Source of the DNA: Acidobacteria bacterium RIFCSPLOWO2_02_FULL_65_29
GTDB lineage: Bacteria > Acidobacteriota > Vicinamibacteria > Vicinamibacterales > CAVVIG01
Length of the DNA stretch: 57,846 bases
Reading direction: 5' to 3'
Assembly (NCBI GenBank): GCA_001767435.1
Contig: MEKT01000033.1
Location: forward strand, 1 to 57,846
Position numbers and translations under genes: made by a program. Each line of letters opens with the position of its first letter. The first letter of the stretch is position 1. The notes below the pieces were generated by a model, which saw only the letters and a program-made list of their open reading frames with translations, was not told the DNA's origin and made no database searches. This document shows positions 1,773-56,613 of the stretch, in pieces.

Positions 1773-1826
1773 CCCTACCTGCCCTACCCGCCCTGCCTGC
1801 CGTACCTGGCCTACCAGGCCACCCGG
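1773..1826. repeat. Six tandem 9-nt units between convergent genes
   Basis: The sequence divides exactly into six 9-mers: CCCTACCTG, CCCTACCCG, CCCTGCCTG, CCGTACCTG, GCCTACCAG and GCCACCCGG. They fill most of the gap between the convergent toxin gene and atpF. No hairpin or T-tract is evident, so a terminator role is not supported. Confidence 0.85.
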
Positions 1827-1830
1827 CCGT

Positions 1831-2334
1831 CTAGTGTTTCCTCGTTTCCACCTGTCTGAGCGCTTCGTCGATCAGCTTCTCGTTGTCTTCCTTCGAGAGA
1901 TTGCGCTGGATGATCTTCGACGCGATCGCGACCGACAGATCGATCGCCTCGTGGCGAATCTGCTCGAGCGCCCTCGTCGTCTCCAGCTGAATCTGGCGCT
2001 CGGCGTTCTTGACGATGCCGTCGGATTCGGCCTTCGCCTTCTGACGCATTTCATCCCGAAGCCGGGCGGCATCCGTGCGGCTTTGCGAGATGATGGCTTC
2101 CGCTTCGACGCGCGCCTGCCGGACGATCTGCGCGGATTCCTGCTGCAGGCGCGCCAGCTCCTCGGTGGCGAGCTTGGCGTCGTCGAGCGACTTTCTGATC
2201 GTCGCCTGACGGCTTTCGAGCGCCTTGAGCAGCGGACCCCAGGCGAACTTCGCAAGCGCGGTCAGCAGGACCAGAAACGTCAGGATGGTCCAGATGTACA
2301 GTCCGGGATCGGGCTGGACCAGCGGGTTATCCAT
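1831..2334 (-). CDS. atpF: ATP synthase F0 subunit b
   Basis: The 167-residue protein has one N-terminal membrane helix (LYIWTILTFLVLLTALAKFAW) followed by a long charged coiled coil, the peripheral-stalk b subunit that links F0 subunit a to F1. The start at ATG 2334 is preceded by AAAGGA at a suitable distance; upstream in-frame codons are rejected because they run into a repeat element. It is the last gene of the F0 operon. No delta, alpha, gamma, beta or epsilon gene follows. A 98-nt structured repeat lies 32 nt upstream of the start. Confidence 0.93.
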   Translation of the reverse strand: MDNPLVQPDPGLYIWTILTFLVLLTALAKFAWGPLLKALESRQATIRKSLDDAKLATEELARLQQESAQIVRQARVEAEAIISQSRTDAARLRDEMRQKAKAESDGIVKNAERQIQLETTRALEQIRHEAIDLSVAIASKIIQRNLSKEDNEKLIDEALRQVETRKH

Positions 2335-2366
2335 TGCCGAGCGTCCTTTCACGCGCCCGAGGGCGG

Positions 2367-2464
2367 TAACGAAGCTCCGTCTCAAACCGACGAGAAAAAC
2401 GAAGCCTCTGGGTCGGTGAAGCTTCGTGACCAGTTGCGCGGCCGGCGGAGCGGCCGCGCCTAAG
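2367..2464 (-). repeat. Structured leader repeat, copy 1 (upstream of atpF)
   Basis: This 98-nt element shares with the copy at 2894-2992 an ordered set of blocks. In plus-strand order they are TAACGAAGC, TCAAACCGACGAG, GCTTCGT, AGTTGCGCGGCCG and CGGCCGCGCCTAAG. ACGAAGC pairs with GCTTCGT, and GCGCGGCCG pairs with CGGCCGCGC, giving two hairpins. It ends 32 nt before the atpF start on the transcribed strand. Confidence 0.85.
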
Positions 2465-2468
2465 ACAG

Positions 2469-2525
2469 CTTCTAAGGCTCACCGATAGAGACTTGCTTCA
2501 TGTGTCACGATCATGGCCTTAGAAG
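2469..2525 (-). terminator. 10-bp hairpin in the atpE-atpF gap
   Basis: CTTCTAAGGC (2469-2478) and GCCTTAGAAG (2516-2525) are exact reverse complements around a 37-nt loop, starting just after the atpE stop. No T-run follows. It could be a processing or stability hairpin that sets the atpE:atpF mRNA ratio as readily as a terminator. Confidence 0.45.
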
Positions 2526-2529
2526 ATGT

Positions 2530-2868: not shown

Positions 2869-2893
2869 TCCCGTGTCCTTTCGTATAGTGAGT

Positions 2894-2992
2894 TAACGAA
2901 GCGTCGCGTCAAACCGACGAGTGGAAAACGGAGCGTCGGCCGTGGCGCCGCTTCGTTCATAGTTGCGCGGCCGCGTCGCGGCCGCGCCTAAG
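2894..2992 (-). repeat. Structured leader repeat, copy 2 (upstream of atpE)
   Basis: This 99-nt copy has the same ordered blocks as 2367-2464, including the exact 13-mer TCAAACCGACGAG and both hairpins. It ends 25 nt before the atpE start on the transcribed strand. A short ATG-initiated reading frame (about 31 codons from MNEAAPRP) crosses this copy, but the matching region of copy 1 is shifted by 2 nt. Conservation is therefore of the nucleic acid rather than a peptide. Confidence 0.85.
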
Positions 2993-3051
2993 CCGGGCTT
3001 GCGTCGCCAGAATTCGACACATTTGTACACATTCTGGGCAGGCAAGCACGG

Positions 3052-3987
3052 CTAGTGATGAACGTGAATGGCCATGCCGATGAACACGGCCGTCAGGAGC
3101 GAGAACACGTACGCCTGCACCAGCACCACGATGATCTCGAGGAGCGAGATGCCAAAGGCCATCGGCACCGACAGGACGAACCCGACGCCAATCCCCGCAA
3201 TTGCGGTACCGAACCTTTCGGTGAAGAGAAAGACGAACGAGAGAATCGCCAGGATGGCGATGTGGCCGCCCGTCATGTTGGCCGCAAGCCGCATGGTCAG
3301 GGCGAACGGGCGCACGAACATCCCCATGAGCTCGATCGGAATCAGGATGACGTAAATCGGCGCCGCCAGGCCGTGCGGGACCAGGTTTTCCCAGTGCTTG
3401 ACGAACCCGTGTGCCTTTGTGCCGGCGACGATGATGGCCAGAAAGGTAATCGTGGCAAGCGCCGCCGTCACGTTGAAATTGGCCGTGGCGGTCGAGCCGC
3501 CGTGCATGACCCGCACGATGAACGACTCTTCACCGGCGTGCAGCACCCAGTGGTTCAACACACCGAGGACGTCGAAGATGGGAATCAAGCCGATCGCATT
3601 TGCCGAAACGATGAAGATGAACAGCGTGAGCACGAGCGGCGTCCAGGTGTTCACCCACTTCTTGCCGACGTTGGGCAGCACAATGCTGTCGCGGACGAAT
3701 TCGACGATGGCCTCGAGGGCGTTCATGAAGCCCGAAGGCACGAGGCGATCCTGACGCAGATAGCGACGGATGGCCCACGTCACGAGCACGAACACCGTGC
3801 CGGCGACCAGCCACAGCATGAGCACGTGCTTGGTCACCGAGAAGTCGATGCCGGCGAGGGTCGGAAGGTGAATCAGCGGGTGCTCGCGCGAGCTGTTCGA
3901 CACGTGCTCGAGGATGGTCCGACCCGCATTGAACGTCTCGGCCGCTGCTCCGGCCAGATGCTCCGCGGCGGGTTCCTGAAAGGCCAT
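3052..3987 (-). CDS. atpB: ATP synthase F0 subunit a
   Basis: The 311-residue polytopic membrane protein forms the proton half-channels next to the c-ring. The essential Arg is Arg233 in ALTMRLAANMTGGH, and the C-terminal helix carries the conserved Gln in VLVQAYVFSLL. A long loop with His/Glu-rich segments (near residues 150-170) separates the middle helices, as in other 'long' bacterial a subunits. It starts 9 nt after the AtpI-like gene and belongs to the same transcript. Length and motifs are complete. Confidence 0.95.
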   Translation of the reverse strand: MAFQEPAAEHLAGAAAETFNAGRTILEHVSNSSREHPLIHLPTLAGIDFSVTKHVLMLWLVAGTVFVLVTWAIRRYLRQDRLVPSGFMNALEAIVEFVRDSIVLPNVGKKWVNTWTPLVLTLFIFIVSANAIGLIPIFDVLGVLNHWVLHAGEESFIVRVMHGGSTATANFNVTAALATITFLAIIVAGTKAHGFVKHWENLVPHGLAAPIYVILIPIELMGMFVRPFALTMRLAANMTGGHIAILAILSFVFLFTERFGTAIAGIGVGFVLSVPMAFGISLLEIIVVLVQAYVFSLLTAVFIGMAIHVHH

Positions 3988-3996
3988 CGCTCGTGT

Positions 3997-4374: not shown

Positions 4375-4377
4375 CGG

Positions 4378-4644: not shown

Positions 4645-4662
4645 GCGCGCTCTTGGCCGGGC

Positions 4663-4668: not shown

Positions 4669-4721
4669 GCGTACCTTGTGAAAAACTTCACCAACTGACG
4701 TAATTGGCCCAACGACAGAGC

Positions 4722-16155: not shown

Positions 16156-16973
16156 TGATGCGTTTCGTGCCGCTCGCGCTCTACGCTGCCGCGCTCGCCG
16201 CCTACGTCTGGCATTTTGCCGTCCGGCATGCGGCCGTGGGCCGTGCGGCGACGACGCTGCTGGTGGCTGGCGCGTTCGCGCACACCTTCCTCATCGGCAT
16301 GCAGACGATGGAGTTTGGGCACGTGCCGTTTGCGAGCCCAACCTCGGCCATCTCGACCTTTGTGTGGCTGCTCGCCCTCGCCTACTTGTACACCGAGATG
16401 ACCACCGATGAGCGCGCGATGGGTGCGTTGATCCTTCTGCTCATCGTGGCGTTGCAGTCGATTCCGACACTCCAGCCAGGGGTGGAGGAGCGCGCCGCGG
16501 TGCTCGAGAGCCCCCTGTTCGGGGTCCACGTCTCGTCGCTACTCTTCGCGTACGCGAGCTTCGCGCTGGCGTGCGTGATCGGCATTACCTACGTGCTGCT
16601 GTTCAAGGAGATCAAAGCGAAGCATCTGGGCTTCTTCTACGCACGGCTGCCGTCGCTGCAGGTGCTCGACTCGATGAATCAGCGCGCGATCGTGGTCGGC
16701 TGGGTCTTCCTGACGATCGGCCTCGTGGTGGGCGCGGTGTGGGCGAGCCAAGCGCCAACGACCGATCCGCGGGTCCAGGCGATGCAAGTGCAGGATCCCA
16801 AGATCTTTGTCGCCCTCGTGTGCTGGGCCGTGTACTCCTTCGAGGTGTTTGCGGCACGGCGCATCGGGTGGGGCGGACGGCGGACGGCGTATCTTTCGGC
16901 CGTCGGTTTTGCGATCGTCCTGTTGAACTTCGTGCCCATCAGCTACTTCCTCACCAGGAGCCACAACTTCTGA
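16155..16973 (+). CDS. HemX/CcsA-like membrane protein (cytochrome c assembly family)
   Basis: The 272-residue protein has about eight membrane segments and the family layout: short N-terminal helices, GMQTMEFGHVPFASPTSAISTFVWLLALAYL, VHVSSLLFAYASFALACVIGITYVLL, and the C-terminal GWGGRRTAYLSAVGFAIVLLNF. Heme-handling CcsA proteins carry a Trp-rich WWD loop; here the equivalent loop (VWASQAPTTDP ... QDPKIFVALVCW) has lost most Trp and the WDPKE core. That makes it closer to HemX, which modulates glutamyl-tRNA reductase. Its place just before hemA supports this. ATG 16155 or 16158. Confidence 0.7.
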   Translation: MMRFVPLALYAAALAAYVWHFAVRHAAVGRAATTLLVAGAFAHTFLIGMQTMEFGHVPFASPTSAISTFVWLLALAYLYTEMTTDERAMGALILLLIVALQSIPTLQPGVEERAAVLESPLFGVHVSSLLFAYASFALACVIGITYVLLFKEIKAKHLGFFYARLPSLQVLDSMNQRAIVVGWVFLTIGLVVGAVWASQAPTTDPRVQAMQVQDPKIFVALVCWAVYSFEVFAARRIGWGGRRTAYLSAVGFAIVLLNFVPISYFLTRSHNF

Positions 16974-16980
16974 TAGTGGA

Positions 16981-17187
16981 ATTTGAGGATTTGAGGATTT
17001 GAGGATTTGAGGATTTGAGAATCTGAGGATTTGAGAATCTGAGGATTTGTCGGGAGATTTGAGGACTTGAGGATTTGAGAATCTGAGGATGCAGGTCAAA
17101 TCCTCGAATCTCGCGAAATCCCTCAAATCCTCAATTCCTCAAATCCTCAATTCCTCAAATCCTCAATTCCTCAAATCCTCAAATCCA
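16981..17187. repeat. Inverted pair of ATTTGAGG octamer arrays upstream of hemA
   Basis: Between the HemX-like gene and hemA, 12 mostly intact 8-nt units of ATTTGAGG type (16981-17091, with one 12-nt irregular unit) are followed by an array of the reverse complement, TCCTCAAAT (about 17096-17187). The arms could pair into a long imperfect hairpin. The array fills the whole 224-nt gap; no promoter or Shine-Dalgarno sequence is evident in it. Confidence 0.9.
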
Positions 17188-17197
17188 GTATTCACCG

Positions 17198-18547
17198 ATG
17201 CACCTATTGCTGATTGGCGTCAGCCATCGGACCGCGCCCATAGAGTTGCGCGAGCGCTTCGATTTTCAGACGCGCGGCGTTGAGGGCGCGCTCCGCGCGC
17301 TTGCCGCGCGAGATGCCGCCCGCGAAGCGGTCGTCCTGTCCACGTGCAACCGGGCCGAGCTGTACGCGGCGTGCGACGAACGCGACGCGGGGCGCCAGGA
17401 CCTCGTGCGGTTCCTGGCCGAGTACCACGGCGTGGGCGTCGACCTCGTGGCGCCTCACCTGTACGAGCTGGCCGACCTCGACGCGGCGCGGCATCTGTTT
17501 CGCGTGGCGGCAGGCCTCGACTCGCTCGTGGTCGGCGAGCCGCAGATTCTCGGACAGGTCAAGGCCGCGCACAGCGCCGCGGCGGCCGCCGAGACATCAG
17601 GTCCCCTGTTGAACCGTCTGTTTCACGCGTCGTTTGGCGCCGGTAAGCGCGTTCGATCGGAGACGGGACTCGGGTCGGGCGCCGTGTCGATTAGTTTCGC
17701 GGCGGTCTCTCTGGCACGCAAGATCTTCGGCGACCTGACCGATCGCTCGGTGGTGGTCGTCGGCGCGGGCGAAATGGGCAAGCTGACGGCCCGGCACATG
17801 AAAGCGCAAGGCGCGCATCACGTGACCATCGTCAGCCGCTCGATGGCACACGCGGCACGGACGGCCGAGGCGATCGGCGGCGCGTCGGCGGCGCCATGGG
17901 ACGACCTGGACGCCGCGCTCGGCGGGGGCGACATCGTGATCACGGCCACCGGCGCCGCGGCGCCGATTCTCACCAAGGCCCGCATCGAGGCGACGATGCG
18001 TTCGCGGCGCAACCGCCCGCTGTTCATCATCGACATCGCCGTTCCGCGTGACGTCGAGGCCGCCGCCGGTGAGATCGAGCAAGTGTTCCTCTACAACATC
18101 GATGACCTGCAAGCCACGGTGCGCGAAAATCTGGCACGACGCGCAGGCGAAGTCGCGCACGCCGAATCGATCGTCGGCGAAGAAGTCGAAAAATTCGCTC
18201 TGTGGGTGCGCTCGCGCGGCGCCGTGCCGACGATTGTCGCCCTCCGCCAGCATTTCGAGTCCGTCAGGCACGCGGAGCTCGAGCGGCTGCTCAAGCTCTC
18301 GTCGCTTCCCGCGGAGGCCCGTGAGCGCGTCGACGACATCACGCGCCTCATCGTGGAGAAACTGCTGCTGACGCCCACCGAGCAGCTCAAGTCGGTCGGC
18401 GACCAGGAAATCGTCGGCGCCTATCACGAGGCCCTCACCCACCTGTTCGGCCTCGGCGCCCACCCGCGGCCGGCCGGCCCCGCGGACGTAGAGCCCGAGC
18501 GTCCCAAAGTTGTCGACGGATCGTTCAACCGGACGACCCGGCGCTGA
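17198..18547 (+). CDS. hemA: Glutamyl-tRNA reductase
   Basis: The 449-residue enzyme reduces Glu-tRNA(Glu) to glutamate-1-semialdehyde, the first committed step of C5 heme synthesis. The N-terminal catalytic domain has GVSHRTAPIELRERF and the nucleophile Cys50 in VVLSTCNRAELYA. The NADPH domain has VVVVGAGEMGKLTARHM, and a C-terminal dimerisation helix follows. DSLVVGEPQILGQVK is also conserved. It heads the block hemA-hemC-cobA/hemD-hemB-hemL. No ribosome-binding site is evident because the gap is filled with repeats. Confidence 0.95.
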   Translation: MHLLLIGVSHRTAPIELRERFDFQTRGVEGALRALAARDAAREAVVLSTCNRAELYAACDERDAGRQDLVRFLAEYHGVGVDLVAPHLYELADLDAARHLFRVAAGLDSLVVGEPQILGQVKAAHSAAAAAETSGPLLNRLFHASFGAGKRVRSETGLGSGAVSISFAAVSLARKIFGDLTDRSVVVVGAGEMGKLTARHMKAQGAHHVTIVSRSMAHAARTAEAIGGASAAPWDDLDAALGGGDIVITATGAAAPILTKARIEATMRSRRNRPLFIIDIAVPRDVEAAAGEIEQVFLYNIDDLQATVRENLARRAGEVAHAESIVGEEVEKFALWVRSRGAVPTIVALRQHFESVRHAELERLLKLSSLPAEARERVDDITRLIVEKLLLTPTEQLKSVGDQEIVGAYHEALTHLFGLGAHPRPAGPADVEPERPKVVDGSFNRTTRR

Positions 18548-18551: not shown

Positions 18552-19592
18552 GTGCATCGCGACCGCGAGCTTCGCCTGGGCACCCGCGGCAGCCAACTGG
18601 CGCTCTGGCAAGCCAACGAGGTGGCCGCCCGCCTTGCCGCGGGGGGCGCGCTGCCCTGCCGCATCGTTGTCATCAAGACATCCGGCGACCGCCTCCAGGA
18701 CGCCCCGCTTTCGGAAGTGGGGGGCAAACGCCTCTTCGTGAAGGAAATCGAGGACGCGCTGCAACGGGGCGAGATCGATCTCGCCGTCCACAGCAGCAAG
18801 GACATGCCGGCGGCGCTGGCCGAAGGGCTTCTGGTCGGCGGGGTCCTGCTGCGGGATGACCCCCGGGATGCGGTGGTGTTGCCAATAGGGGCAGAGGGCG
18901 AAGCGCAGAGGGCAAAGGGCCAAGGGCAGAGGGCAGGGGGCGAAGGGCACAGGGCAGAGGGCGAAGGGCAGAAGGCTCAGTTCGAGCGCATCGAAGACGT
19001 GTTGGCGGCGCTCGGAGCGGCGCCTTCAATCGGCACTGGCAGCGTGCGGCGGGTCGCTCAGCTGGCGCAGGTCTTTGCCGGCGCGACGTTCGCGCCCGTG
19101 CGCGGCAATGTGGAGACGCGGCTACGCAAGCTCGACGAGGGACAGTACCACGCGCTCGTGCTCGCGGCGGCCGGCTTACGCCGGCTGGGCTTTGAACGGC
19201 GTGTCTCCTTGGCGATTCCTCCGTCGATCTGTGTACCCGCGCCCGGACAGGGTATCGTAGCGATCGAGATCCGGGCCGACGACGAGCCGGTGCGGAAGGC
19301 GGTGGGCGGGATCACCGATACGATGGCCGGGGCCGCCCTGACCGCGGAGCGCGCCCTCGTGAGTGCGCTCGGCGGCGGCTGCCAGACGCCGATCGGTGCG
19401 TTCGCATCGCCGCTGGATCGTGAGACGATCGAGCTCATGGCGGTCGTGGCGGCACCCGACGGCAGCGCGTCGATCCGTGCGTCGGGCCGCGCCGCGGTGC
19501 GAGAGGCCGAAGCGCTCGGCGGCCGCGTCGCGCGCGAGCTCATCGCGCAGGGCGCGGATAGGATTCTGGCGGAGTGCGCGATGGGCGACTAA
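18552..19592 (+). CDS. hemC: Porphobilinogen deaminase with heptad-repeat insertion
   Basis: This enzyme joins four porphobilinogens into hydroxymethylbilane. Motifs: LRLGTRGSQLALWQAN, VGGKRLFVKEIEDAL, DLAVHSSKDMPAAL and the cofactor-binding Cys277 in SALGGGCQTPIGAFA. GTG 18552 lies 5 nt after the hemA stop; an upstream TTG at 18510 overlapping hemA is the alternative. The 346 residues exceed the usual ~310 because residues 113-140 (Glu/Gly/Gln/Arg/Ala) are encoded by twelve 7-nt repeats. The insertion follows DDPRDAVVLP, in domain 1 after the active-site Asp region, probably a surface loop. The stop codon lies in another 7-nt array. Confidence 0.92.
   Translation: MHRDRELRLGTRGSQLALWQANEVAARLAAGGALPCRIVVIKTSGDRLQDAPLSEVGGKRLFVKEIEDALQRGEIDLAVHSSKDMPAALAEGLLVGGVLLRDDPRDAVVLPIGAEGEAQRAKGQGQRAGGEGHRAEGEGQKAQFERIEDVLAALGAAPSIGTGSVRRVAQLAQVFAGATFAPVRGNVETRLRKLDEGQYHALVLAAAGLRRLGFERRVSLAIPPSICVPAPGQGIVAIEIRADDEPVRKAVGGITDTMAGAALTAERALVSALGGGCQTPIGAFASPLDRETIELMAVVAAPDGSASIRASGRAAVREAEALGGRVARELIAQGADRILAECAMGD
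18889..18972 (+). repeat. Twelve in-frame 7-nt units inside hemC
   Basis: The segment divides without remainder into twelve heptamers of consensus GGGCAGA/GGGCGAA (for example GGGCAGA, GGGCGAA, GCGCAGA, GGGCAAA, GGGCCAA). The 84 nt equal 28 codons, so hemC stays in frame although one heptamer alone would shift it. Confidence 0.92.
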
Positions 19593-22148: not shown

Positions 22149-22272
22149 GGCCACGAAGGCACGAAGACACGAAGAAGACTCGAAGTTATCCCACAAACGC
22201 CTGGCGCCACGAAAGCACAAAAGCACGAAAAGAATGCTTGGGGGGGGTGGTGTTTTCGTGTTTTCGTGGCCA
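22149..22272. repeat. CACGAAG-type 9-nt array with inverted arm between hemB and hemL
   Basis: GGCCACGAAGGCACGAAGACACGAAG repeats with a period of 9 near 22149-22185. After a short insert and more CACGAAA/CACAAAA units, the reverse complement TTTTCGTGTTTTCGTGGCC appears at 22253-22271. The outer arms can pair around about 80 nt. A G-run of 9 lies at 22239-22247. Nothing else is seen in the gap. Confidence 0.8.
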
Positions 22273-22315: not shown

Positions 22316-23602
22316 ATGACGACATCCCGTTCCCGGCGTTGGTTCGCCCGGGCTCAACAGATCCTGCCCGGCGGCGTCGACAGCCCTGTTCGGGCCTTCA
22401 AGGCGGTCGGCGCCACGCCGCTCTTCATCCGCCGCGCCGAGGGCGCTCGACTCGAAGACGTCGACGGCAACCGCTACATCGACTACGTGATGTCGTGGGG
22501 ACCGCTCATCCACGGGCATGCCCCGCGCGGCCTGGTGAAGGCGCTCGCGGCTGCAGCGCGCCTCGGCACCAGCTACGGAGCGCCGAGTCCGCTCGAAGTC
22601 GAGCTCGGCGAGCGCGTCCGGCGGCGCGTGCCCTCCATCGAGCGCGTGCGGTTCGTCAGTTCGGGCACGGAAGCGACGATGAGCGCCGTGCGCGTGGCGC
22701 GGGCCGCGACCACGCGCGAGAAGATCATCAAGTTCGCCGGCTGTTATCACGGACACGCGGACGCGTTTCTCGTCCAAGCGGGCTCCGGCGCGCTCACGCT
22801 CGGAGTGCCCACCAGCCCGGGCGTCACGAGCGGCGCGGCGCAGGACACGCTGCTCGCCAGCTACAACGACATCGCCTCGGTTCACCGGGCGTTTGACGCG
22901 AACCGCCGCGAGGTTGCCGCCCTCATCGTCGAGCCGATTGCGGGGAACATGGGCGTCGTGCCGCCGGCCGACGGTTTTCTGCGCGCGCTACGCCAGGTGT
23001 GCGACGCGAACGGCGCCCTGTTGATCTTCGACGAAGTGATCTCGGGCTTCCGTGCGTCGCCTGGAGGCGCTCAGGCGCTGGCCGGCGTGAAGCCCGATAT
23101 GACGTGTCTCGGCAAGATCATCGGGGGCGGCCTGCCAGTCGGGGCGTATGGCGGCCGTGCCGACTTGATGGATCTCGTGTCTCCGGCGGGTCCGGTGTAC
23201 CAGGCAGGCACGTTGTCGGGGAATCCGCTCGCGATGACGGCCGGCATCTGGTGTCTCGACCACCTGACGCCGAAGCTCTACGGCACGTTGGCGGCGCTCG
23301 GCTCCCGGTTGGCCGCTGGTCTAGCGGGCGCCGCGCGCGAGGCCCGCGTGGCGCTGCAGGTCAACGCGCTTGGATCGATCCTGACGCCCTTCTTCACTGA
23401 TCGGCCGGTGCGCGACTACCTGTCGGCCACCAGCGCGAACACGGAGCAGTACGCGCGGTTCTTTCGGGCAATGCTGGCGCGCGGCGTCTACCCGCCCCCT
23501 TCGCAATTCGAGGCGTGGTTCCTGTCGGCGGCGCACACGGTGAAGGATGTGGACAGCACAATCGCCGCCGCGAGGGAGGCAATGCGGGAAATCAGAAGTT
23601 AG
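22316..23602 (+). CDS. hemL: Glutamate-1-semialdehyde 2,1-aminomutase
   Basis: The 428-residue PLP enzyme makes 5-aminolevulinate from glutamate-1-semialdehyde, the partner step to HemA. Motifs: PGGVDSPVRAFKAVGATPLFI, VMSWGPLIHGHAP, SSGTEATMSAVRVARA, IFDEVISGFRASPGGAQ, and the PLP lysine Lys267 in CLGKIIGGGLPVGAYGG. Together with hemA, C, D and B it takes Glu-tRNA to uroporphyrinogen III. The stop TAG lies inside a 7-nt array (23594-23614). Confidence 0.95.
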   Translation: MTTSRSRRWFARAQQILPGGVDSPVRAFKAVGATPLFIRRAEGARLEDVDGNRYIDYVMSWGPLIHGHAPRGLVKALAAAARLGTSYGAPSPLEVELGERVRRRVPSIERVRFVSSGTEATMSAVRVARAATTREKIIKFAGCYHGHADAFLVQAGSGALTLGVPTSPGVTSGAAQDTLLASYNDIASVHRAFDANRREVAALIVEPIAGNMGVVPPADGFLRALRQVCDANGALLIFDEVISGFRASPGGAQALAGVKPDMTCLGKIIGGGLPVGAYGGRADLMDLVSPAGPVYQAGTLSGNPLAMTAGIWCLDHLTPKLYGTLAALGSRLAAGLAGAAREARVALQVNALGSILTPFFTDRPVRDYLSATSANTEQYARFFRAMLARGVYPPPSQFEAWFLSAAHTVKDVDSTIAAAREAMREIRS

Positions 23603-23614
23603 AAGTCAGAAGTT
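23594..23614. repeat. Three 7-nt units across the hemL stop
   Basis: AGAAGTT, AGAAGTC and AGAAGTT run in tandem; the hemL TAG (23600-23602) spans units 1 and 2. The array fills the 16-nt gap to the convergent rseP stop. Confidence 0.8.
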
Positions 23615-23618
23615 AGAG

Positions 23619-26175: not shown

Positions 26176-26183
26176 TCGATCAG

Positions 26184-26318
26184 CTATCCGCCGTCAGCTC
26201 TCAGCCATCAGCTATCAGCCTTCCGCATTCGCAGTCGGTTCTCAGCCGCGCGTTCGGGCCGACCGTGAGCTGAAAGCCGAAAGCTGAGAGCGTGTGGCTC
26301 TGAGAGCTGAGAGCTACC
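26184..26318. repeat. CAGCTATCAG / CTGAGAGC inverted 8-nt array between cdsA and dxr
   Basis: Near 26184-26222 the text TCAGCTCTCAGCCATCAGCTATCAGCC repeats with a period near 8. At 26268-26316 the complementary GTGAGCTGAAAGC, GAAAGCTGAGAGC and CTGAGAGCTGAGAGC appear. Inverted arms enclose about 45 nt. The gap shows no promoter. Confidence 0.75.
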
Positions 26319-28688: not shown

Positions 28689-28720
28689 GAATTGCAGAAT
28701 TGCGGAATTGCAGAAGTGCA
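28689..28720. repeat. Four 8-nt units upstream of truA
   Basis: GAATTGCA, GAATTGCG, GAATTGCA and GAAGTGCA form a perfect-period tandem array in the 61-nt gap between pyrE and truA. Any ribosome-binding site for truA would have to lie at its edge. Confidence 0.88.
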
Positions 28721-28744
28721 GAAAGGAAGGAAGCCAGTTAGATC

Positions 28745-31182: not shown

Positions 31183-31300
31183 TTCCCGATTGCCCGATCG
31201 ACCCAGCCAATTCCCCATTCGATTGCCCGATTTCCCCACTTGCTCGTTCCCCACTACTCAATGACCCGTTCCCAATTACCCGATTACCCGATTCAAGTAC
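31183..31300. repeat. CCCGATT-type degenerate array upstream of the glycosyltransferase
   Basis: The text repeats CCCGATTG, CCCGATCG, TTCCCCATTCGATTGCCCGATTTCC and later CCCAATTA, CCCGATTA, CCCGATTC with an average period of 8. It fills the gap between copy 1 of the dispersed repeat and the glycosyltransferase start. Confidence 0.75.
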
Positions 31301-31309: not shown

Positions 31310-32113
31310 GTGCCGCGCCTGACGGTCACCGTCATCACCAAGAACGAAGCCTCGAACCTCGAGGCCGCGCTTCAATCGGTCCGGTGGGCCGACGAGATCG
31401 TCGTTGTCGATTCGGAGAGTACGGACGAGACGGTCGCGATCGCTCGGCGGTTCACCGAGCGCGTCTACACGCAGACTTGGCCGGGGTACGTCGCGCAGAA
31501 AAACCGTGCGGCCACGCTGGCGAGTCACGATTGGATTCTGTCGCTCGATGCCGACGAGCGCGTCACACCGGAACTGGCCGACGAGATCCAATCGACGCTG
31601 GCGGGCCCACCCGCCCTCCCGGCGTTCCGGATGCCGCGCGCGACCTTCTACCTCGGCCGGTGGATTCGGACGACCGACTGGTATCCCGACCGTCACACGC
31701 GGCTCTACGATCGACGATCGGCACAGTGGGCGGGCCAGTACGTCCACGAATCGGTCGCCGTACACGGCGCGATCGGCGACCTGGCCGGCGAACTGCGGCA
31801 CTTTCCGTACCGCGACGTCTCGGATCATCTCGAGACGATCGATCGGTACACGACGTACGCGGCGCGCCAGATGCACGAGCAGGGACGGCGCGCCGGACTT
31901 CTGCAGCTGGCCGGCCATCCGCCCCTGGCGTTCGTGCGCAACTACATCGTGCACGGCGGCTTCAAGGACGGCGTGCCCGGATTCATCGTGTCCAGTCTCA
32001 ACGCGTATTACGTGTTCCTGAAGTTCGCCAAACTCTGGGAGCTGCGGCAGATGCCGGAGCAGAGCACCCGGAACGTCGCACGACGCACGTCGCACATCGA
32101 ACGACGCACGTAG
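31310..32113 (+). CDS. Family 2 glycosyltransferase (LPS-core beta-glucosyltransferase-like)
   Basis: The 267-residue protein has the GT-A fold with LTVTVITKNEASNLEAAL, EIVVVDSESTDET and the DxD motif in WILSLDADERV. The downstream part (WIRTTDWYPDRHTRLYDRR, ELRHFPYRDVSDHLETIDRYTTYAARQM) matches the WaaE/KdtX-like branch that adds sugars to lipopolysaccharide core. GTG 31310 is preceded by TACACT 6 nt upstream, so a leaderless message is possible. The last 13 or so residues (NVARRTSHIERRT) are written by an ACGACGCACGT repeat that also supplies the stop. Confidence 0.85.
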   Translation: MPRLTVTVITKNEASNLEAALQSVRWADEIVVVDSESTDETVAIARRFTERVYTQTWPGYVAQKNRAATLASHDWILSLDADERVTPELADEIQSTLAGPPALPAFRMPRATFYLGRWIRTTDWYPDRHTRLYDRRSAQWAGQYVHESVAVHGAIGDLAGELRHFPYRDVSDHLETIDRYTTYAARQMHEQGRRAGLLQLAGHPPLAFVRNYIVHGGFKDGVPGFIVSSLNAYYVFLKFAKLWELRQMPEQSTRNVARRTSHIERRT

Positions 32114-32119
32114 AACGTA
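32077..32119. repeat. ACGTCGCACG repeat across a stop codon
   Basis: Degenerate 9-nt-like units (ACGTCGCAC, GACGCACGT, CGCACATCG, AACGACGCACGT, AGAACGTAG) cover the last codons of the family 2 glycosyltransferase and the 7-nt gap to the next gene. The same words recur at 44430-44566. Confidence 0.65.
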
Positions 32120-32120
32120 G

Positions 32121-33263
32121 ATGTTTTCGCTGCACATCGACACCGCCCAAACGTGGCGCGGCGGGCAGAACCAGGTGCTGCTCACCGTGTTGGGCCTGCG
32201 CGAGATCGGGCAGCGCGCGGCGCTCGTCGCGCACCCCGACGGCGAGCTGCGCAGGCGCGCGGAAGAAGGGCTGGATCTCATCCCTCTTGCCCCGCGCAAC
32301 GAGATGGACCTGTCGGCTGCCTGGCGTCTCTCGCGCGTCTTGAAGCGCCTCGATCTCGACGTCGTGCACGCGCACGATCCGCACGGCCTGGCGATGGCCT
32401 CGCTGGCCCTCTCGCTCGGCGCCTCGTCGATCGGGCGCGGACGCGCTCCGGCGCTCGTGGCGTCGCGGCGTGTGGACTTCCACCTGAAAGGCAATTCGCT
32501 GTCGCGCTGGAAACACCGGCAGGTCGACTGCTTCATCGCCGCGTCCGAGGCCATCCGGCGCATCCTCCTCGTCGACGGCGTGCCCGGCGAGCGCGCGATC
32601 ACGGTTCACGAAGGCATCGACGTCGAACGCGTCGCCTCCGTGGCGCCGGTCAGCGTGCACGAGGCGTTCTGGCTGCCGCACCACGCGCCCGTTGTCGGCA
32701 ACGTGGCCGCGCTCGTGCCGCACAAAGGGCAGCGCCACCTAATTGAAGCCGCGCACCTGGTCGTGCGGGAGATCCCCGACGCGCGCTTCGTGATCCTGGG
32801 CGAAGGCGAGCTCAGGGAGCAGCTCGAACGCCAGGTTCGCGATTACCACCTCGAGAAGCACGTGCTGCTGCCCGGCTTTCGCACCGACGTGATGGGCTGC
32901 CTGAAGGGGTTCGACGTCTTCGCGATGAGCTCCGTCACCGAGGGACTCGGCACGTCGCTCCTCGACGCCATGGCCTGCTCGCGGCCGATCGTGGCCACGA
33001 CCGCCGGCGGCATTCCCGAGGTGGTCGCCGACGGCGAAACCGGCCTGCTCGTGCCGCCTCGCGACCACGCGGCGATGGCGGGGGCCATCGTGCGGCTGTT
33101 GAACGACGCGGCGCTTCGCGCGCGGATGGGCGCGGCCGGGCTGGCGCGCGTTCGCGAACGCTTCACCGTCGAGCGGATGGTCGCCGAGACCGCCGCCGTG
33201 TACGCGCGCGTGGCCGGCAGACCCCACGCAGCGGACACTGCGAGTCTTTCTGCGCGCGATTGA
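32121..33263 (+). CDS. Family 4 glycosyltransferase
   Basis: The 380-residue protein has a GT-B fold. The N-terminal domain starts SLHIDTAQTWRGGQNQVLLTV with the Gly-rich acceptor loop; DVVHAHDPHGL is conserved. The C-terminal domain has VGNVAALVPHKGQRHLIEAA and the donor motif SSVTEGLGTSLLDAMACSRPIVATTAGGIPEVV, the EG(L/F)G..LLEAMA signature of GT4. It is likely involved in cell-envelope glycan synthesis with the preceding glycosyltransferase, which ends 7 nt upstream. The final 33 codons overlap the convergent TIGR02757 gene by 101 nt. Confidence 0.88.
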   Translation: MFSLHIDTAQTWRGGQNQVLLTVLGLREIGQRAALVAHPDGELRRRAEEGLDLIPLAPRNEMDLSAAWRLSRVLKRLDLDVVHAHDPHGLAMASLALSLGASSIGRGRAPALVASRRVDFHLKGNSLSRWKHRQVDCFIAASEAIRRILLVDGVPGERAITVHEGIDVERVASVAPVSVHEAFWLPHHAPVVGNVAALVPHKGQRHLIEAAHLVVREIPDARFVILGEGELREQLERQVRDYHLEKHVLLPGFRTDVMGCLKGFDVFAMSSVTEGLGTSLLDAMACSRPIVATTAGGIPEVVADGETGLLVPPRDHAAMAGAIVRLLNDAALRARMGAAGLARVRERFTVERMVAETAAVYARVAGRPHAADTASLSARD

Positions 33264-39617: not shown

Positions 39618-39647
39618 TAGCTCTCAGCTCTCAGCCCGTATCGCCAA

Positions 39648-39679
39648 ATTCTCAAATCCTCAATTCCTCAGATCCTCAA
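39648..39679. repeat. 8-nt array at the pyrC 3' end
   Basis: ATTCTCAA, ATCCTCAA, TTCCTCAG and ATCCTCAA run in tandem and include the last codons and stop of pyrC. It is the same word family as the arrays at 16981-17187 and 42449-42510. Confidence 0.8.
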
Positions 39680-40981
39680 ATTCGCCATCTCGGGGTTCAC
39701 GTACACCGTCCGTCCTCCGACAATCGTCGCGGCAACGGCGCCTCGAAGCTTCCACCCATCGAACGGGGTGTTCCTGGCCTTCGATCGCATCGTTCTGGCC
39801 GACACGGTGACGGCACGATCGGGCGCGAGGATCGTGATGTCGGCTGGCGTATGGTCGGCCAGCGATCCGCCGGGCACGCGCAGGATGCGCGCGGGGTTCA
39901 CCGACAGGAGCTCGACGAGCCGCGCCAACGTGATGACGCCCGGGTGGACGAGGCGGTCGAACGACAGCGAGACGGCTGTTTCGAGCCCCGTAATGCCGAA
40001 GGGCGCGTGGTCGAACTCCACATGCTTCTCGTCGTAGTGATGCGGCGCGTGGTCGGTCGCGATCGCGTCGATCGAGCCGTCGGCCAGACCCTGCCGCATC
40101 GCGTCGCGGTCCGCGGCTTCGCGGAGCGGCGGATTCATCTTCACGTTGGTGTCATACGGCACGGGCGCGCCGAGCATCTCGTCGGTGAGCACGAAATGAT
40201 GAGGCGTCACCTCGCAGGTGACGCGGGCCCCGCGGGCCTTGCCGTCGCGCACCGCTTCGAGCGTCTGCCGCGCACTCATGTGGGCGATGTGCACCGCGCC
40301 GCCGGTCAGTCGGGCGAGCGAGATGTCGCGCAGCGCCATGATGGATTCGGCCTCGCCGGGAATGCCGCGCAGGCCGAGCGTCGACGCGTGAAATCCTTCG
40401 TGCGCCACGCCGTCTCCCTTGAGCGTCTGCTCCTCGCAGTGCTCGATCACGGGCATGCCAAACATGCCCGCGTACTCGAGCACGCGCCGCATCAGCAGGG
40501 CTGTCGCGACGGGCCGCCCATCGTCGGTCACCGCCACGCAGCCGGCCTGCTTGAGCTCGGCGATGTCGGCGAGTTGTTCGCCCATCTGCCCCCGAGACAC
40601 GGCGCCGATGGGATACACCCGCGCCAGATGTGCCTCGGCGGCCTTTTGCAGGATGTAGCCGGTCACACCCGCGTTATCGTTCACCGGCGACGTATTGGGC
40701 ATGCAGGCGACGGCGGTGAATCCGCCTGCCACGGCCGCCGCCGTGCCCGTGGCCACGGTTTCCTTGTGCTCCTGTCCCGGCTCGCGCAGGTGCACGTGCA
40801 TGTCGATCAGCCCGGGGCAGACGACACATCCGGCGGGAATCTCGACGACGAGCGCGCCGTCGGCCGCCAGGTCCCTCCCCACACGCGCGATGCGGCCGTC
40901 TTCGATCAACACGTCGAACACGCCATCGCGGCCGTTCACCGGATCGACGACGCGCCCGCCCTTAAGCAGCCGCTTCGGCAT
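39668..40981 (-). CDS. pyrC: Dihydroorotase (class I)
   Basis: The 437-residue amidohydrolase closes carbamoyl aspartate to dihydroorotate. Metal ligands are visible: [10 protein letters not shown], the Asp of [25 protein letters not shown] and [18 protein letters not shown] is also typical. It is long enough to be an active enzyme rather than the inactive partner seen in some species. ATG 40981 lies 20 nt inside the 3' end of pyrB. Its C-terminal codons are written by an 8-nt repeat. Confidence 0.95.
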
Positions 40982-42430: not shown

Positions 42431-42531
42431 GGCGAGACCTGCGCTGGAATGTGAGGATTTGAGGATCTGAAGATTTGAGGATCTGACGATCTGAGGATGT
42501 GAGGATGTGGCGGGCGGACGCGAACCTTCAC
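42418..42531 (-). CDS. Putative pyr leader peptide
   Basis: A 37-codon reading frame starts with GTG 42531, 7 nt after AGAGG at the base of the PyrR-binding hairpin, and ends at TGA 42420-42418, overlapping the pyrR ATG 42418 (TGATG). Much of it ([19 protein letters not shown]) is read from the 8-nt repeat. If PyrR hides the ribosome site, pyrR translation would fall through coupling. This is inference from spacing alone. Confidence 0.35.
42449..42510. repeat. 8-nt array inside the pyrR leader
   Basis: Seven and three-quarter units: ATGTGAGG, ATTTGAGG, ATCTGAAG, ATTTGAGG, ATCTGACG, ATCTGAGG, ATGTGAGG, ATGTGG (plus-strand spelling). It is present in one orientation only, so it does not form a terminator hairpin by itself. 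Confidence 0.9.
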
Positions 42532-42609: not shown

Positions 42610-42677
42610 AATTTCAGAGTTCAGAGATCAGTTTGCATTGCAGAAGTTCTCAAATCTGAACTCTGAACTCTGAAATT
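42610..42677 (-). terminator. 17-bp perfect inverted repeat after the phosphodiesterase-like gene
   Basis: AATTTCAGAGTTCAGAG (42610-42626) and CTCTGAACTCTGAAATT (42661-42677) are exact reverse complements with a 34-nt loop. The structure begins at the stop codon of the upstream minus-strand gene and ends near the pyrR promoter, so it may isolate the two units. Its words (CTCTGAA) are also repetitive. Confidence 0.5.
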
Positions 42678-44420
42678 TCATCGGTCATATGTCGGAATGA
42701 ACGTGATCGGACGCTTGGCGAAAAATGACGGCTGGAAGAGCTCCGTTCGCACGTAGCCGTCCATGTCGCGCCCGATCGGCAGACCCAGGAAGTAGAGGAT
42801 CGTCGGCGCCACGTCGATGACCGACGCTCGCGTGAGCGACCGCGCCTTCGACACCGACGTGCCGTAGGCCATCAGGAACCCGTCCGGCGCGGCTTCGTGG
42901 GTGCCGCTCAGATCGGGGTCGCCGATGACTTGTTCGAGCAGCCGCTTGCCGAAGCCGAGCGGCTCCATGCCGTAGGCCGACACCACGAGCACCAGATCCT
43001 CGGGCCCGAGTGCCGCAAGGGCTCGTCCAATGGCGTCATCCATCAGACGGTAGTGGCTCTCGAGCACCGAACCGAAGCGGACCCGCTCTTCCTCCGTGAC
43101 GTTGCCGAATCTGGACGGCACGGCGTACCGCAGAAAGTAATGACCGATCGGATCGAGGCTCTGGTACCGAGTGATGGCCACCTGCGTGGGCCGACCGATG
43201 GCGTGCGCCTGCGCGATCGCGTCATACACGCGATCGACCCGCCCCGCTTCCCGGTGACGTTCGGGGAGCTCGGGCTGGACGCCGACGGCCGGCGTCGATT
43301 CAGCCCTCGCGGCCTGAACCAACGGGAGAAGCTCCGACACCAGCTCGGGAGGATACGCGAGCTGCGAATCGTCCAGACCCGAGAGCGTGAGCGCCAGTTG
43401 AGCGTACCGATCGCTGATCACATGGCCGCGTACCGGCGAGGCCGGGTACGTCAGCGGCCAGTTGACGACCCCGACCGTGACGCCCGCGCCGCTCAGAATG
43501 CCCCAGAGCGTGCGGGTCCGCAGCGTCGCGGAGGAATGCGCCTGTTCGGTCAGGAGTCCGAAACGCAAGACGCCGTTGGCAAAACAGAAGTCCGGCAACA
43601 GACGGATCGGACTGCCCCCGCCCTCGGGCAGATAGACGCGAGCCGATCGCACGCCATTCTTCTGCGGCAGCTTGCCCGTGGCGACGGCCGCCCACACGGT
43701 TTCAGCCGACGTCGGGTGGAGCGTGGCGAGATGCATCACGGCCCCCGCGTCCAGCATGCGCCCGAAGTGCGGCAGACGGCCCTCGGCGGCGGCCATGGTC
43801 ACGAGCTCCAGCGACCCGGCGTCGATGGCGATCATCGTGACGCGCGGTACAACGATCGCGGCCGTGGTCTCGAGCGCGGCATCGAACGGCCGGGCGTCGA
43901 GCGGGGGGAGGAGGCCTCGCCCGCGGAACGCGACGGGCGCCGTCACCGAGCCGGCCGCGACGGTCACCAGACACGCCGCCCACGCCGCGCGCGAGCCCAC
44001 GCGCCGGCCCATCAGGCCGATCAGCGCAAACAGTCCGGCGGCAGCGGCCAGCGCCGCCGTGCCCGCGACAATTGCGCGACGCGCCTCCGGCTCGAGCACG
44101 AGCGCAAAGGCACGAAGGTTGGCCCACATGAGGAGGGCGCCCGCTGCCGCGGCGGCGGCGCCGAGCCACGACAGCACGGCCACACTCGCCCACGCGGGCG
44201 AGAAGAGCTCGCGCGCGAGCAGTTGGCGCAGCACCAGCACGACGTAGAAAATCGCCGTCAGGTGCACGGCGTAATAGAGGCCGATGGTGCCTGCCAGCGG
44301 CAAGAGGTCCTCGAAAGCCAGCGGCACGCGCGGGTTCAGTTGCAGCACCAGCGCGAGCAGGTAACACGTCGCCAGCACGGCGGCGATGACCGAGTTGCTC
44401 AACATCCGAAGATAGCTCAC
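42678..44420 (-). CDS. Membrane-anchored alkaline-phosphatase-superfamily protein with altered metal site
   Basis: The 580-residue protein has four to five N-terminal membrane helices (residues 10-165), then a phosphodiesterase/nucleotide-pyrophosphatase-like domain. TMIAIDAGSLELV has the first metal Asp, LHPTSAETVWAAVATG the nucleophile region, YQSLDPIGHYFLRY a DxxxH pair and SGTHEAAPDGFLMAYG a late His. The usual SDHG motif is replaced by SAYG (VLVVSAYGMEPLGF), removing two metal ligands. It may be inactive or specialised, for example in envelope lipid modification. GTG 44420 or ATG 44405 starts it. Confidence 0.72.
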   Translation of the reverse strand: MSYLRMLSNSVIAAVLATCYLLALVLQLNPRVPLAFEDLLPLAGTIGLYYAVHLTAIFYVVLVLRQLLARELFSPAWASVAVLSWLGAAAAAAGALLMWANLRAFALVLEPEARRAIVAGTAALAAAAGLFALIGLMGRRVGSRAAWAACLVTVAAGSVTAPVAFRGRGLLPPLDARPFDAALETTAAIVVPRVTMIAIDAGSLELVTMAAAEGRLPHFGRMLDAGAVMHLATLHPTSAETVWAAVATGKLPQKNGVRSARVYLPEGGGSPIRLLPDFCFANGVLRFGLLTEQAHSSATLRTRTLWGILSGAGVTVGVVNWPLTYPASPVRGHVISDRYAQLALTLSGLDDSQLAYPPELVSELLPLVQAARAESTPAVGVQPELPERHREAGRVDRVYDAIAQAHAIGRPTQVAITRYQSLDPIGHYFLRYAVPSRFGNVTEEERVRFGSVLESHYRLMDDAIGRALAALGPEDLVLVVSAYGMEPLGFGKRLLEQVIGDPDLSGTHEAAPDGFLMAYGTSVSKARSLTRASVIDVAPTILYFLGLPIGRDMDGYVRTELFQPSFFAKRPITFIPTYDR

Positions 44421-44429
44421 GGCAGGACG

Positions 44430-44566
44430 CTCTACGTTCTAGGTTCGACGTGCGACGCGTGATTCGTGCGGCGCGTGATTCCTTCTGAGCGCGACGCGCG
44501 GCAACCGAACGAAGCACGTCGCACGTCCCACGAGAGAACGTCGCACGACGCACGTCGAACGTCGAA
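44430..44566. repeat. ACGTCGCACG-type array in the divergent intergenic region
   Basis: Words such as TTCGACGTGCGACGCGTGATTC on the left and CACGTCGCACG, GAACGTCGCACG, ACGTCGAACGTCGAACGG on the right are mutually inverted. They fill the gap between the phosphodiesterase-like gene and pyrK up to the pyrK promoter. The right arm shares words with 32077-32119. Confidence 0.7.
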
Positions 44567-44582
44567 CGGCAGTATACTGCCG
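44567..44582 (+). promoter_or_regulatory. Palindromic promoter of pyrK-pyrD
   Basis: CGGCAGTATACTGCCG is a perfect 16-bp palindrome containing TATACT (44573-44578), which ends 7 nt before ATG 44586. A leaderless mRNA is predicted. The palindrome may also be an operator. No -35 match is present at 16-18 nt. Confidence 0.6.
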
Positions 44583-53876: not shown

Positions 53877-53883
53877 CGGGCTA

Positions 53884-53982
53884 GGCGCGCACGGCGCGCC
53901 TGCGTCCCTCGACGATGCTCGGGACGCCCTGAGCATTGTCGAACGGCGCAAGCGACCGAGCCGGGGTGTGGGGCGGAGCCCC
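53884..53982 (+). repeat. Dispersed GC-rich repeat, copy 3, with nested palindrome
   Basis: It begins GGCGCGCACGGCGCGCC, TGCG and ends GCAAGCGACCGAGCCGGGG, GGGGCGGAGCCCC, as in copy 1. The middle is replaced by an imperfect palindrome (TCGACGATGCTCGGG ... CCCTGAGCATTGTCGA, 53910-53942). It fills the gap between convergent CNNM and P-type ATPase genes. Confidence 0.85.
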
Positions 53983-53990
53983 ACGTGAAG

Positions 53991-56132: not shown

Positions 56133-56135
56133 GAC

Positions 56136-56504
56136 TTACTTCGCGCGGGCTCCCGCCGCCTTGCGCTGGTCCGGGCTGCGGCCAGTCTGTGCCGCACGCG
56201 TGTTGCGCTCCTCGACGTGCTGGAGCCCCTGTTCGAAGAGCCGGACGATGTGGTGGTCGTCGAGGGCGTAATAGACGAGGCGGCCTTCGCGGCGGGGACG
56301 GACGAGGCGGCCGCCGCGCAGCACGCGGAGTTGGTGGGAGACGGCCGACTCGCTGAGACCCACCAGGGCGGCAATGTCGGAGACGCAGAGCTCGGCGCGC
56401 GACAGCGCGTCGAGGATGCGGACGCGCGTGACGTCTCCGAGCACGCGGAACGTGTCGGCGAGGGCGGTGGCGGAGGGCGGGGCGAGCGTGCGCTTGGCGG
56501 TCAT
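56136..56504 (-). CDS. ArsR/SmtB-family metal-sensing repressor
   Basis: The 122-residue winged-helix protein has DVTRVRILDALSRAELCVSDIAALVGLSESAVSHQLRVLRGGRLVRPRREGRLVYYAL. In alpha-3 only one Cys of ELCVCD remains (ELCVSD). The alpha-5 zinc site (DDHHIVRLFEQGLQHVEE) has the Asp, His, His and Glu arrangement of SmtB/CzrA, so Zn sensing is likely. It should repress its own operon with the downstream ATPase through the operator at 56522-56541. Confidence 0.9.
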   Translation of the reverse strand: MTAKRTLAPPSATALADTFRVLGDVTRVRILDALSRAELCVSDIAALVGLSESAVSHQLRVLRGGRLVRPRREGRLVYYALDDHHIVRLFEQGLQHVEERNTRAAQTGRSPDQRKAAGARAK

Positions 56505-56521
56505 CGTTTGCCTATATGAAC

Positions 56522-56541
56522 ATATGAGCAGATGTTCATGT
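56522..56541 (-). promoter_or_regulatory. SmtB/ArsR-type operator
   Basis: ATATGAGCA-GA-TGTTCATGT is a 9-2-9 imperfect inverted repeat (7 of 9 pairs) of the kind bound by SmtB/ZiaR regulators. A TATACT -10 on the minus strand (56551-56546) lies just upstream, so a bound repressor would cover the transcription start. Confidence 0.65.
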
Positions 56542-56557
56542 ATTGAGTATACAGGGA

Positions 56558-56613
56558 CCGGGGGCTGGGGGCTAGAGGCTCGGGACTCGGGCTTCGGGAT
56601 TGGGGACTCGGGG
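56558..56613. repeat. Eight 7-nt units between arsR and the peroxiredoxin gene
   Basis: CCGGGGG, CTGGGGG, CTAGAGG, CTCGGGA, CTCGGGC, TTCGGGA, TTGGGGA and CTCGGGG: exactly 56 nt. The array lies upstream of the arsR promoter and downstream of the peroxiredoxin gene, both on the minus strand. Confidence 0.9.

Follow-up and report, generated by a model that had tools for sequence, protein, structure and literature searches.

The 57,846-nucleotide contig MEKT01000033.1 of Acidobacteria bacterium RIFCSPLOWO2_02_FULL_65_29 (Vicinamibacterales), hereafter the window, is scattered with short tandem arrays of strict period, and raises the question of whether such arrays arise by replication slippage or through a dedicated process, an alternative that a first-pass annotation of the contig had left undecided. 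The window is contig 33 of 239 in a genome of 5.51 Mb (97% complete), of which 1,486,527 bases were sampled (the own-genome sample; counts from its first 835 kb only are marked as such). Arrays were detected with Tandem Repeats Finder (TRF) and a lag-match scan (minimum lag score 12), and genes were called by a home-made dicodon score and identified by Pfam, which supported nuoC, hemA, hemC, an aminotransferase (hemL), a family-2 glycosyltransferase and an amidohydrolase/DHOase gene. We consider it slightly better than an even chance that the arrays belong to dispersed palindromic elements, as stems or leftover single arms, and that slippage lengthens the stems.

The periods are well founded. 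Ten of the eleven coordinates named in the first-pass annotation have the period given there and outscore at least 98% of 400 random places in the window; the exception is 22149, where the period is 8 and not 9. The window contains 10 period-7 and 8 period-8 arrays, compared to means of 0.2 and 0.0 in five dinucleotide shuffles. Scanning the own-genome sample for tandem repeats of periods 4-15 showed an excess of periods 7 and 8 (238 and 129 arrays vs 1 and 5 in one dinucleotide shuffle, which held no more than 5 arrays at any period), the counts being 1, 2, 19, 238, 129 and 49 for periods 4-9 and 0, 8, 22, 10, 167 and 26 for periods 10-15, with period 14 representing doubled period 7. A chance origin was ruled out because the arrays nearly disappear from shuffled sequence and none of period 7 or 8 was found in 100 kb of E. 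coli K-12. Relatives do carry arrays: in 20 stretches (396 kb, 6 of the 20 positioned to include the hem region) from seven genomes of the same family, the array counts for periods 7, 8 and 9 were 30, 7 and 18, the leading words varying from genome to genome. The arrays had been called intergenic, which is true of most, but the one at 18889-18976 lies inside hemC, and most arrays of period 9 are coding (20 of 33; 835 kb). An Rfam search of the window gave no match, and neither did a BLAST search against plasmids with the arrays as queries (perhaps because of the low-complexity filter). At period 11, six of the seven arrays (835 kb) have the word ACCCCACTCTG, a hint that there may be a family with a longer word.

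The words had been taken to be specific to each site; on cluster counts this was rejected in favour of a small genome-wide vocabulary. When words were clustered with one mismatch allowed, rotation and strand being ignored, ten clusters took in 217 of the 238 heptad arrays and ten took in 124 of the 129 octad arrays, compared to only 88-98 heptads and 38-48 octads in three sets of letter-shuffled words. Chief among the heptads are GGGCAAA, AGTYNAC, AGTCGNT, AGAAGTY, GGGACTC, AGGGACT, AGTTCAG and AGCTNTC, and among the octads GGATTTGA, CACGAARR, AATTGGGT and ATTGCAGA. Period is tied to word (every word has one period), and the main element families of the own genome number about a dozen.

Arrays of the same word often form inverted arms around a loop (stem, loop, complementary stem), and the order of the arms is fixed. 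After removal of 32 blocks that overlapped a same-family block and of pairs without any arm of 2.5 units, one arm order per word was found in all 97 inverted pairs within 100 bp, the same count including 37 direct same-word pairs. The strand signs of 12 word families came from the initial 835 kb, which holds 59 of the 97 pairs; the remaining, independent pairs agreed in 38 of 38 cases. Since a hairpin is identical on both strands, arm order is a property of the element itself. In 125 of 305 arrays an inverted partner (at most two mismatches in two units) lay downstream of the word strand at a distance of up to 110 nt, and in none did one lie upstream (8 and 0, respectively, in a control with another family's word); the pair count places 119 of 367 arrays in an inverted pair. 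The outer ends are in a fixed phase, which was read from aligned displays (an end-phase test was set aside because variable positions within the word bias the apparent array end): GC precedes CACGAA in 94-100% of 17 arms, and some families have a special outer unit (GAATTTGA replacing GGATTTGA, GC ahead of CACGAA). The ends vary by family (GCCACGAA, GAATTTGA, AGTCRAC...), and by eye GTAG occurs only at some AGGGACT, GGGCAAA and AGCTCTC ends. The flanks of the own-genome hairpins appear unrelated to each other. Loop pairs scoring at least 12 were found in 13 of 291 same-family comparisons, 26 of 2949 different-family comparisons and none of 291 shuffled ones; L244 and L048 (AATTGGGT), the best pair, have nearly one sequence, and loops are also shared among L223, L035 and L052 (GGATTTGA). 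In a first set of 48 pairs the loops had looked unrelated, and among the 97 pairs a minority was shared, by which whole-element copying in the own genome is partly supported; these shared loops favour copying over templated end addition.

The same loci were compared in related genomes (labelled G001, G004 and so on), which revealed presence and absence as well as different words at one junction. Between ccsA and hemA, the aligned gene ends are no more than 17 bp apart in 15 of 25 relatives and 45-231 bp apart in the other ten (the 95 bp of G020 include unaligned coding ends). Octads scored in this gap in G013 (GATGTGAG), G023 and G026, heptads in G001 and G020, and a 9-mer in G017, while no array scored in G005, G015, G016 and G018. 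The own genome, G013, G023 and G026 have octad hairpins of different words here (hairpins by eye, arrays scored), and the site is empty in G022 and filled in G023, two members of one genus with 85-88% identity over neighbouring stretches. At the hemC-cobA junction 12 of 25 relatives had scoring heptads, with AGTC-type words making up about half. In an alignment of 26 HemC proteins, one variable loop has heptad arrays in the own genome, G004, G016, G017, G019, G020 and G022, with words that differ between genomes (a GC-rich match in G012 is doubtful); this one HemC loop has been invaded repeatedly, by arrays of different words. The same loop in other genera contains in-frame inserts resembling repetitive extragenic palindromes (REPs), translated as VRLKPDA/VASGFSR (L204, L205, L211, L221, L062); it is a tolerant site common to two kinds of element, heptads and REP-like inserts.

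Observations in two further genomes decide between local birth and dispersal. In G015, six of the 20 fetched sites agree in the core of the loop (CCAATGC-TGCTG) and resemble each other in the outer flank (ACTTGACTTGGCGTAGCT-like), but have left arms of 19, 26, 26, 26, 54 and 72 nt, i.e., about 3 to 11 units; copies with a common loop and flank but unequal stems suggest that stems lengthen after dispersal. Part of this flank recurs at an own-genome site, L320. G212 contains seven near-identical CACGAA hairpins within a larger repeated stretch, and the two cases together indicate that hairpins disperse and that their stems then lengthen or shorten. Around the CACGAA hairpins of G212 (L273-L277, L292) the larger dispersed repeat has shared flanks on both sides. 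A long higher-order array, in which a four-heptad block is itself repeated, was seen at L332 (G008 C111).

The shared-word polar hairpins suggest a little-recognised dispersed, self-lengthening DNA element, in which each family would build its stem by repeating a single word of 7 or 8 nt (9 nt in some relatives) from the outer end to the loop. A whole hairpin would arrive at a new site as a unit, in the manner of a miniature inverted-repeat transposable element (MITE) or REP. At the site, as seen in one family, the stem would gain or lose whole units, most simply by replication slippage, and the two arms would then vary independently; the bias toward 7-8 nt might stem from the stretch of DNA that the polymerase grips (a published idea, cited in PMC4692102). 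Finally, to judge from their distribution, selection would clear promoters and genes and leave survivors just past stop codons, and the stop-free family GGGCAAA could persist inside genes. Slippage and a dedicated process are then not mutually exclusive: slippage after dispersal is indicated by the G015 copies, but slippage alone is insufficient because of the shared words, the fixed arm order and the recurrent invasion of the HemC loop.

Several observations weigh against dispersed palindromic elements. Reversed pairs do appear once the distance limit is relaxed (1 of 99 at 120 bp and 3 of 103 at 200 bp) and, when the arm-length filter is omitted, also within 100 bp (1 of 102), and AGCTNTC hairpins have the other order in 24 of 284 matches (relatives and own genome). 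No inverted partner was detected for 180 of 305 arrays in the partner scan or for 248 of 367 in the pair count. Of the same-family loop pairs, 278 of 291 score below 12, and by eye the listed loops also mostly differ in the Flavobacterium genome of L086 (32 matches of the CACGAA hairpin described below); mostly unlike loops are not what simple copying predicts. The two arms of a hairpin resemble each other no more than arms taken from different same-family hairpins do (p=0.08, 48 pairs), and their lengths are not correlated (p=0.24, 97 pairs); templating of one arm on the other was rejected because neither a similarity excess nor a length correlation within hairpins was significant. The flank patterns of the G015 copies were typed after the copies had been seen, and the flank match at L320 is short. 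At the displayed hairpins no target-site duplication was seen by eye (some G015 AGCTNTC copies have TA on both sides). A search for Y1_Tnp, the domain of REP-associated tyrosine transposases (RAYT), gave no match in the own genome, by which mobilisation by RAYT was rejected there; 18 of the 27 family genomes have one.

The fixed order extends to other lineages. GTDB genomes, when scanned for CACGAANNCACGAA-loop-TTCGTGNNTTCGTG, yielded at least 118 stretches; the matches listed (80 loci) came from Bacteroidota (many of them Flavobacterium), Methylobacter, other Proteobacteria, Chloroflexi, Planctomycetes, Spirochaetes, Omnitrophota and Acidobacteria, and most of them end CCACGAA...TTCGTGG (by eye). 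In the Flavobacterium genome of L086 the arms are nearly constant (most of the arm is fixed by the search pattern). Pattern matches overlap and are not independent sites in the following counts. Among 297 acidobacterial genomes the forward CACGAA order gave 53 matches in 10 genomes and the reversed order 3 in 2; in 16 genomes picked for holding a forward hairpin it was 173 vs 6, and the 6 reversed matches look like places where one hairpin ends and another begins. The usual order prevailed in AGGGCT hairpins (19 vs 0 in the 27 family genomes) and in AGCTNTC hairpins (260 vs 24; 8 vs 0 in the own genome). AGCTNTC is partly self-complementary, and its reversed copies in G015 and G016, which share a AGCTATAGCT centre, look like a separate lineage. 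Patterns read backward, used as controls, were not empty since they spell other hairpins of the vocabulary, AGTCGAN (5 usual, 1 reversed) and GGGANTC (6 usual, 0 reversed). In viral contigs (IMG/VR) the CACGAA hairpin was found in 2 stretches (L271 2188-2247; L272 444-504) and the reversed order in none; a viral origin was dismissed on this number. The two viral hairpins may be host sequence or proviral flanks.

The relation to genes had been flagged for study, and arrays do lie near gene ends, with stops preferred. Of the 367 period-7/8 arrays 79 overlap a stop, 9 overlap a start and 20 are wholly within a called gene, and for non-genic arrays the median distance to the nearest gene end is 6 nt in heptads and 13 nt in octads compared to 63 at random (835 kb). 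Among gaps of at least 40 bp, an array is present in 45 of 108 convergent, 151 of 544 tandem and 26 of 150 divergent ones, and hairpins in 87 of all 802. In the window five arrays overlap a called stop, as had been reported (nuoC, hemC, hemL, the glycosyltransferase and the amidohydrolase/DHOase gene, which is pyrC-like), and C-terminal tails are read from four of them; in nuoC the array covers only the stop codon (3 nt), so no tail is read there. GGGCAAA, free of stop codons in every frame, is the commonest word within genes (6 of the 20 in-gene arrays), the GGGCAAA strand always being the coding one. This in-gene and gene-end pattern would fit insertion anywhere followed by selection.

The same distribution could also result if the arrays were RNA hairpins under selection, i.e., terminators or 3'-end stabilisers with repeat-built stems, an explanation which we regard as unlikely. 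The preference for convergent over divergent gaps and for stops over starts speaks for it, as does the context of the CACGAA hairpins in other phyla, where, judged by long open reading frames among the matches listed, 37 lie in tandem, 19 in convergent and 1 in divergent gaps (10 are within a reading frame and 18 at a locus edge). However, 66 hairpins in tandem gaps showed no excess of G.U over A.C mismatches on the sense strand (90 vs 94), function alone leaves the shared words and the fixed order unexplained, and insertion anywhere with purifying selection yields the same gene-end bias.

Telomerase-like end addition, in which both 3' ends at a break gain a genome-specific word and are then joined, seems improbable to us. 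Its product would be word, loop and complement in one fixed order, with random loops and with flanks lacking homology, which accounts for the fixed arm order, the fixed outer phase and the one word on both arms, and also for the mostly unlike loops and flanks, the independent arm lengths and the single arms. Against it, loops or flanks are shared in G015, G212 and some own-genome pairs, and a minority order exists in AGCTNTC. A reverse transcriptase was rejected as the agent: RVT_1 matched once in the own genome and in just 8 of 27 family genomes, the 19 without a match including the period-7-rich G023 and G006 (the 19 include incomplete genomes, and the search covered no other polymerases). 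The unlike loops, the lack of likeness between arms and their untied lengths would suit independent writing of the arms, and for this reason we keep a templated reading at an equally low weight: a word-writing process of many phyla would use a few 7-9-nt templates per genome, written inward from the ends of a break or insertion. Writing always on the same strand, it would produce hairpins with repeat stems and mostly arbitrary loops; such a process would amount to a telomerase-like activity of the chromosome, for which an RVT_1-type reverse transcriptase would not be needed.

We are more doubtful still that the arrays are bound by sequence-specific DNA- or RNA-binding proteins, a role suggested for the heptad TAACTGA in Beggiatoaceae (PMC4679880, in excerpt). 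Words do recur and a published proposal exists for one heptad, but about a dozen main words would demand as many proteins, the same site has different words between genera, and there is no strong orientation with respect to genes (171 sense and 129 antisense two-unit matches, over a high shuffled background of 435 vs 688 real that makes two-unit matches alone unreliable). Least probable of all is pure local slippage, each array being born in place from chance near-repeats with a period set by polymerase contacts: the strict 7/8 periods, higher-order repeats, the change of unit number in G015 and a similarity of neighbouring units above that of shuffled units (mostly transitions, 527 of 852; the lag-match selection of arrays biases this result) are in its favour, but the few clusters that hold nearly all arrays, the fixed arm order, the different words by genus at the same HemC codons and the CACGAA hairpins in several phyla largely refute it as the only cause, unless words are selected by slippage itself.

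Among known systems, MITEs and the Rickettsia palindromic elements are non-autonomous palindromes, with in-frame insertion into tolerant protein loops. The elements described here are likewise palindromes with inverted arms and fixed-phase ends, inserted in frame in HemC and, in the six G015 copies, sharing loop core and flank, but their stems are short tandem repeats and no target-site duplication was seen by eye. With slippage microsatellites they share the difference in unit number between homologous copies (G015). Known REPs have stems of 5-13 bp and a GTAG or CGTC tag, the GTAG type often occurring with a RAYT; they resemble our hairpins in being dispersed palindromes, as do bacterial interspersed mosaic elements, mostly downstream of genes and sometimes within them, with several families in some genomes, whereas the stems here consist of 7-8-nt repeats with no general tag and the own genome has no Y1_Tnp match (PMC3733652, in excerpt).

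The likeness to the short tandemly repeated repetitive (STRR) sequences of cyanobacteria, which the first-pass annotation had pointed out, is good for the 7-mers but does not cover the octads, which fall outside a 7-nt definition. STRR-type heptamers of cyanobacteria and Xanthomonas (GGGGAYT; GGGAATC in Xanthomonas and Nostoc) are, as excerpts of PMC4692102 have it, degenerate 7-nt tandem units of variable number, mainly intergenic, near gene ends and scarce between divergent genes, and some words are similar to those found here (GGGACTC, one ACTGGGG array). As a class of dispersed, mainly intergenic 7-nt repeats they would embrace the 238 heptad arrays of the own-genome sample. Unlike STRRs, this genome has 129 octads beside its heptads, about a dozen coexisting families, and arms in inverted pairs of fixed order; inverted repeats are mentioned only in passing in the excerpted part of PMC4692102. 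The TAACTGA repeats of Beggiatoaceae (169 direct sets and one inverted, mostly just upstream of starts) are also intergenic heptads with a patchy distribution across phyla, but represent a single word on the start side, while the arrays here are often inverted and favour stops (PMC4679880, in excerpt). In the P6b stem of the Nostoc trnL intron, a stem of degenerate heptads (TDNGATT / NNTGAGT) has its word swapped wholesale between lineages, but this concerns one locus in a structured intron rather than genome-wide, mostly intergenic arrays (PMC4476775, in excerpt). The constant-size tandem repeats of Bacillus (20-21 or 52 nt) belong to a different size class (PMC8161180, in excerpt). Reports of a heptamer excess in bacteria go back to 2007 or earlier, and according to PMC4692102 and PMC4679880 its mechanism is not settled. 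A literature search, with most subscription journals outside its scope, found no description of octad families, a shared vocabulary or a fixed arm order; heptad arrays and some of the words are already known, and the polar repeat-stem hairpin was found in none of the literature searched and is apparently new there.

Shared vocabulary, fixed order and empty sites turn a microsatellite puzzle into a defined class of dispersed elements with testable ends, polarity, gain and loss. If mobile, they would be an abundant element type little noticed in environmental genomes; if they are products of templated synthesis, a new enzyme activity would be implied. The arrays also offer protein ends and loops, as in HemC, a route to new in-frame sequence.

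The arrays of the window are listed in Table 1. The GGATTTGA hairpin occupies most of the ccsA-hemA gap (a fold of 16960-17200 gave -123.5 kcal/mol), and the AGCTNTC hairpin sits between the gene at 25006-26175 and a cytidylyltransferase gene (26314-27126).

Table 1. Heptad and octad arrays and hairpins of the window (positions in MEKT01000033.1).
Feature	Position	Strand	Details
Octad GGATTTGA hairpin, 211 bp	16978..17188	.	Arm 16978-17091, loop 17092-17094, inverted arm 17095-17188
Octad CACGAARR hairpin, hemB-hemL gap	22150..22270	.	Direct blocks 22150-22177 and 22207-22231; inverted arm 22247-22270
Heptad AGCTNTC hairpin	26177..26317	.	Arm 26177-26223, inverted arm 26267-26317
Heptad TTCAGAG/TCTGAAC hairpin	42610..42678	.	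Arms 42610-42632 and 42648-42678
Heptad GGGCRRA array within hemC, single arm	18889..18976	+	In frame, 21-bp superperiod; TRF; hemC by Pfam
Heptad CGACTAA array across hemC stop codon	19586..19605	-	
Heptad ACTTTTA (AAAAGTT) array up to nuoC stop codon	13139..13173	-	Gene by Pfam
Heptad AGAAGTY array across hemL stop	23588..23617	+	TRF; gene by Pfam
Octad GAATTGCA array (ATTGCAGA family)	28689..28723	+	TRF
Octad CCCGATTA array (AATTGGGT family)	31271..31293	-	TRF
Heptad ACGTCGC array across family-2 glycosyltransferase stop	32073..32121	.	Gene by Pfam
Octad CAAATCCT array (GGATTTGA family), amidohydrolase/DHOase gene stop	39645..39681	-	Gene by Pfam
Octad GGATCTGA array	42449..42509	+	TRF
Heptad arrays, ACGTCGA type, in divergent gap	44427..44568	.	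44427-44468 and 44538-44568
Heptad GGGACTC array, gap between ArsR-type regulator gene and AhpC/TSA gene	56554..56612	+	

Two other repeats were noted in the window. A dispersed element of about 170 bp (2356-2547), which contains a GCGCGGCCGC-type palindrome, matches about 40 other places in the own genome in whole or in part, and a second stretch of it (2894-3067) adds 4 matches; the element lies beside ATP synthase genes. At 34715-34823, a 36-bp REP-like unit (TGTAGTGCGGGACTTTAGTCCCGC...) is repeated 2.8 times in frame within a penicillin amidase gene (PF01804, E 1e-230), in this genome without a Y1_Tnp match.

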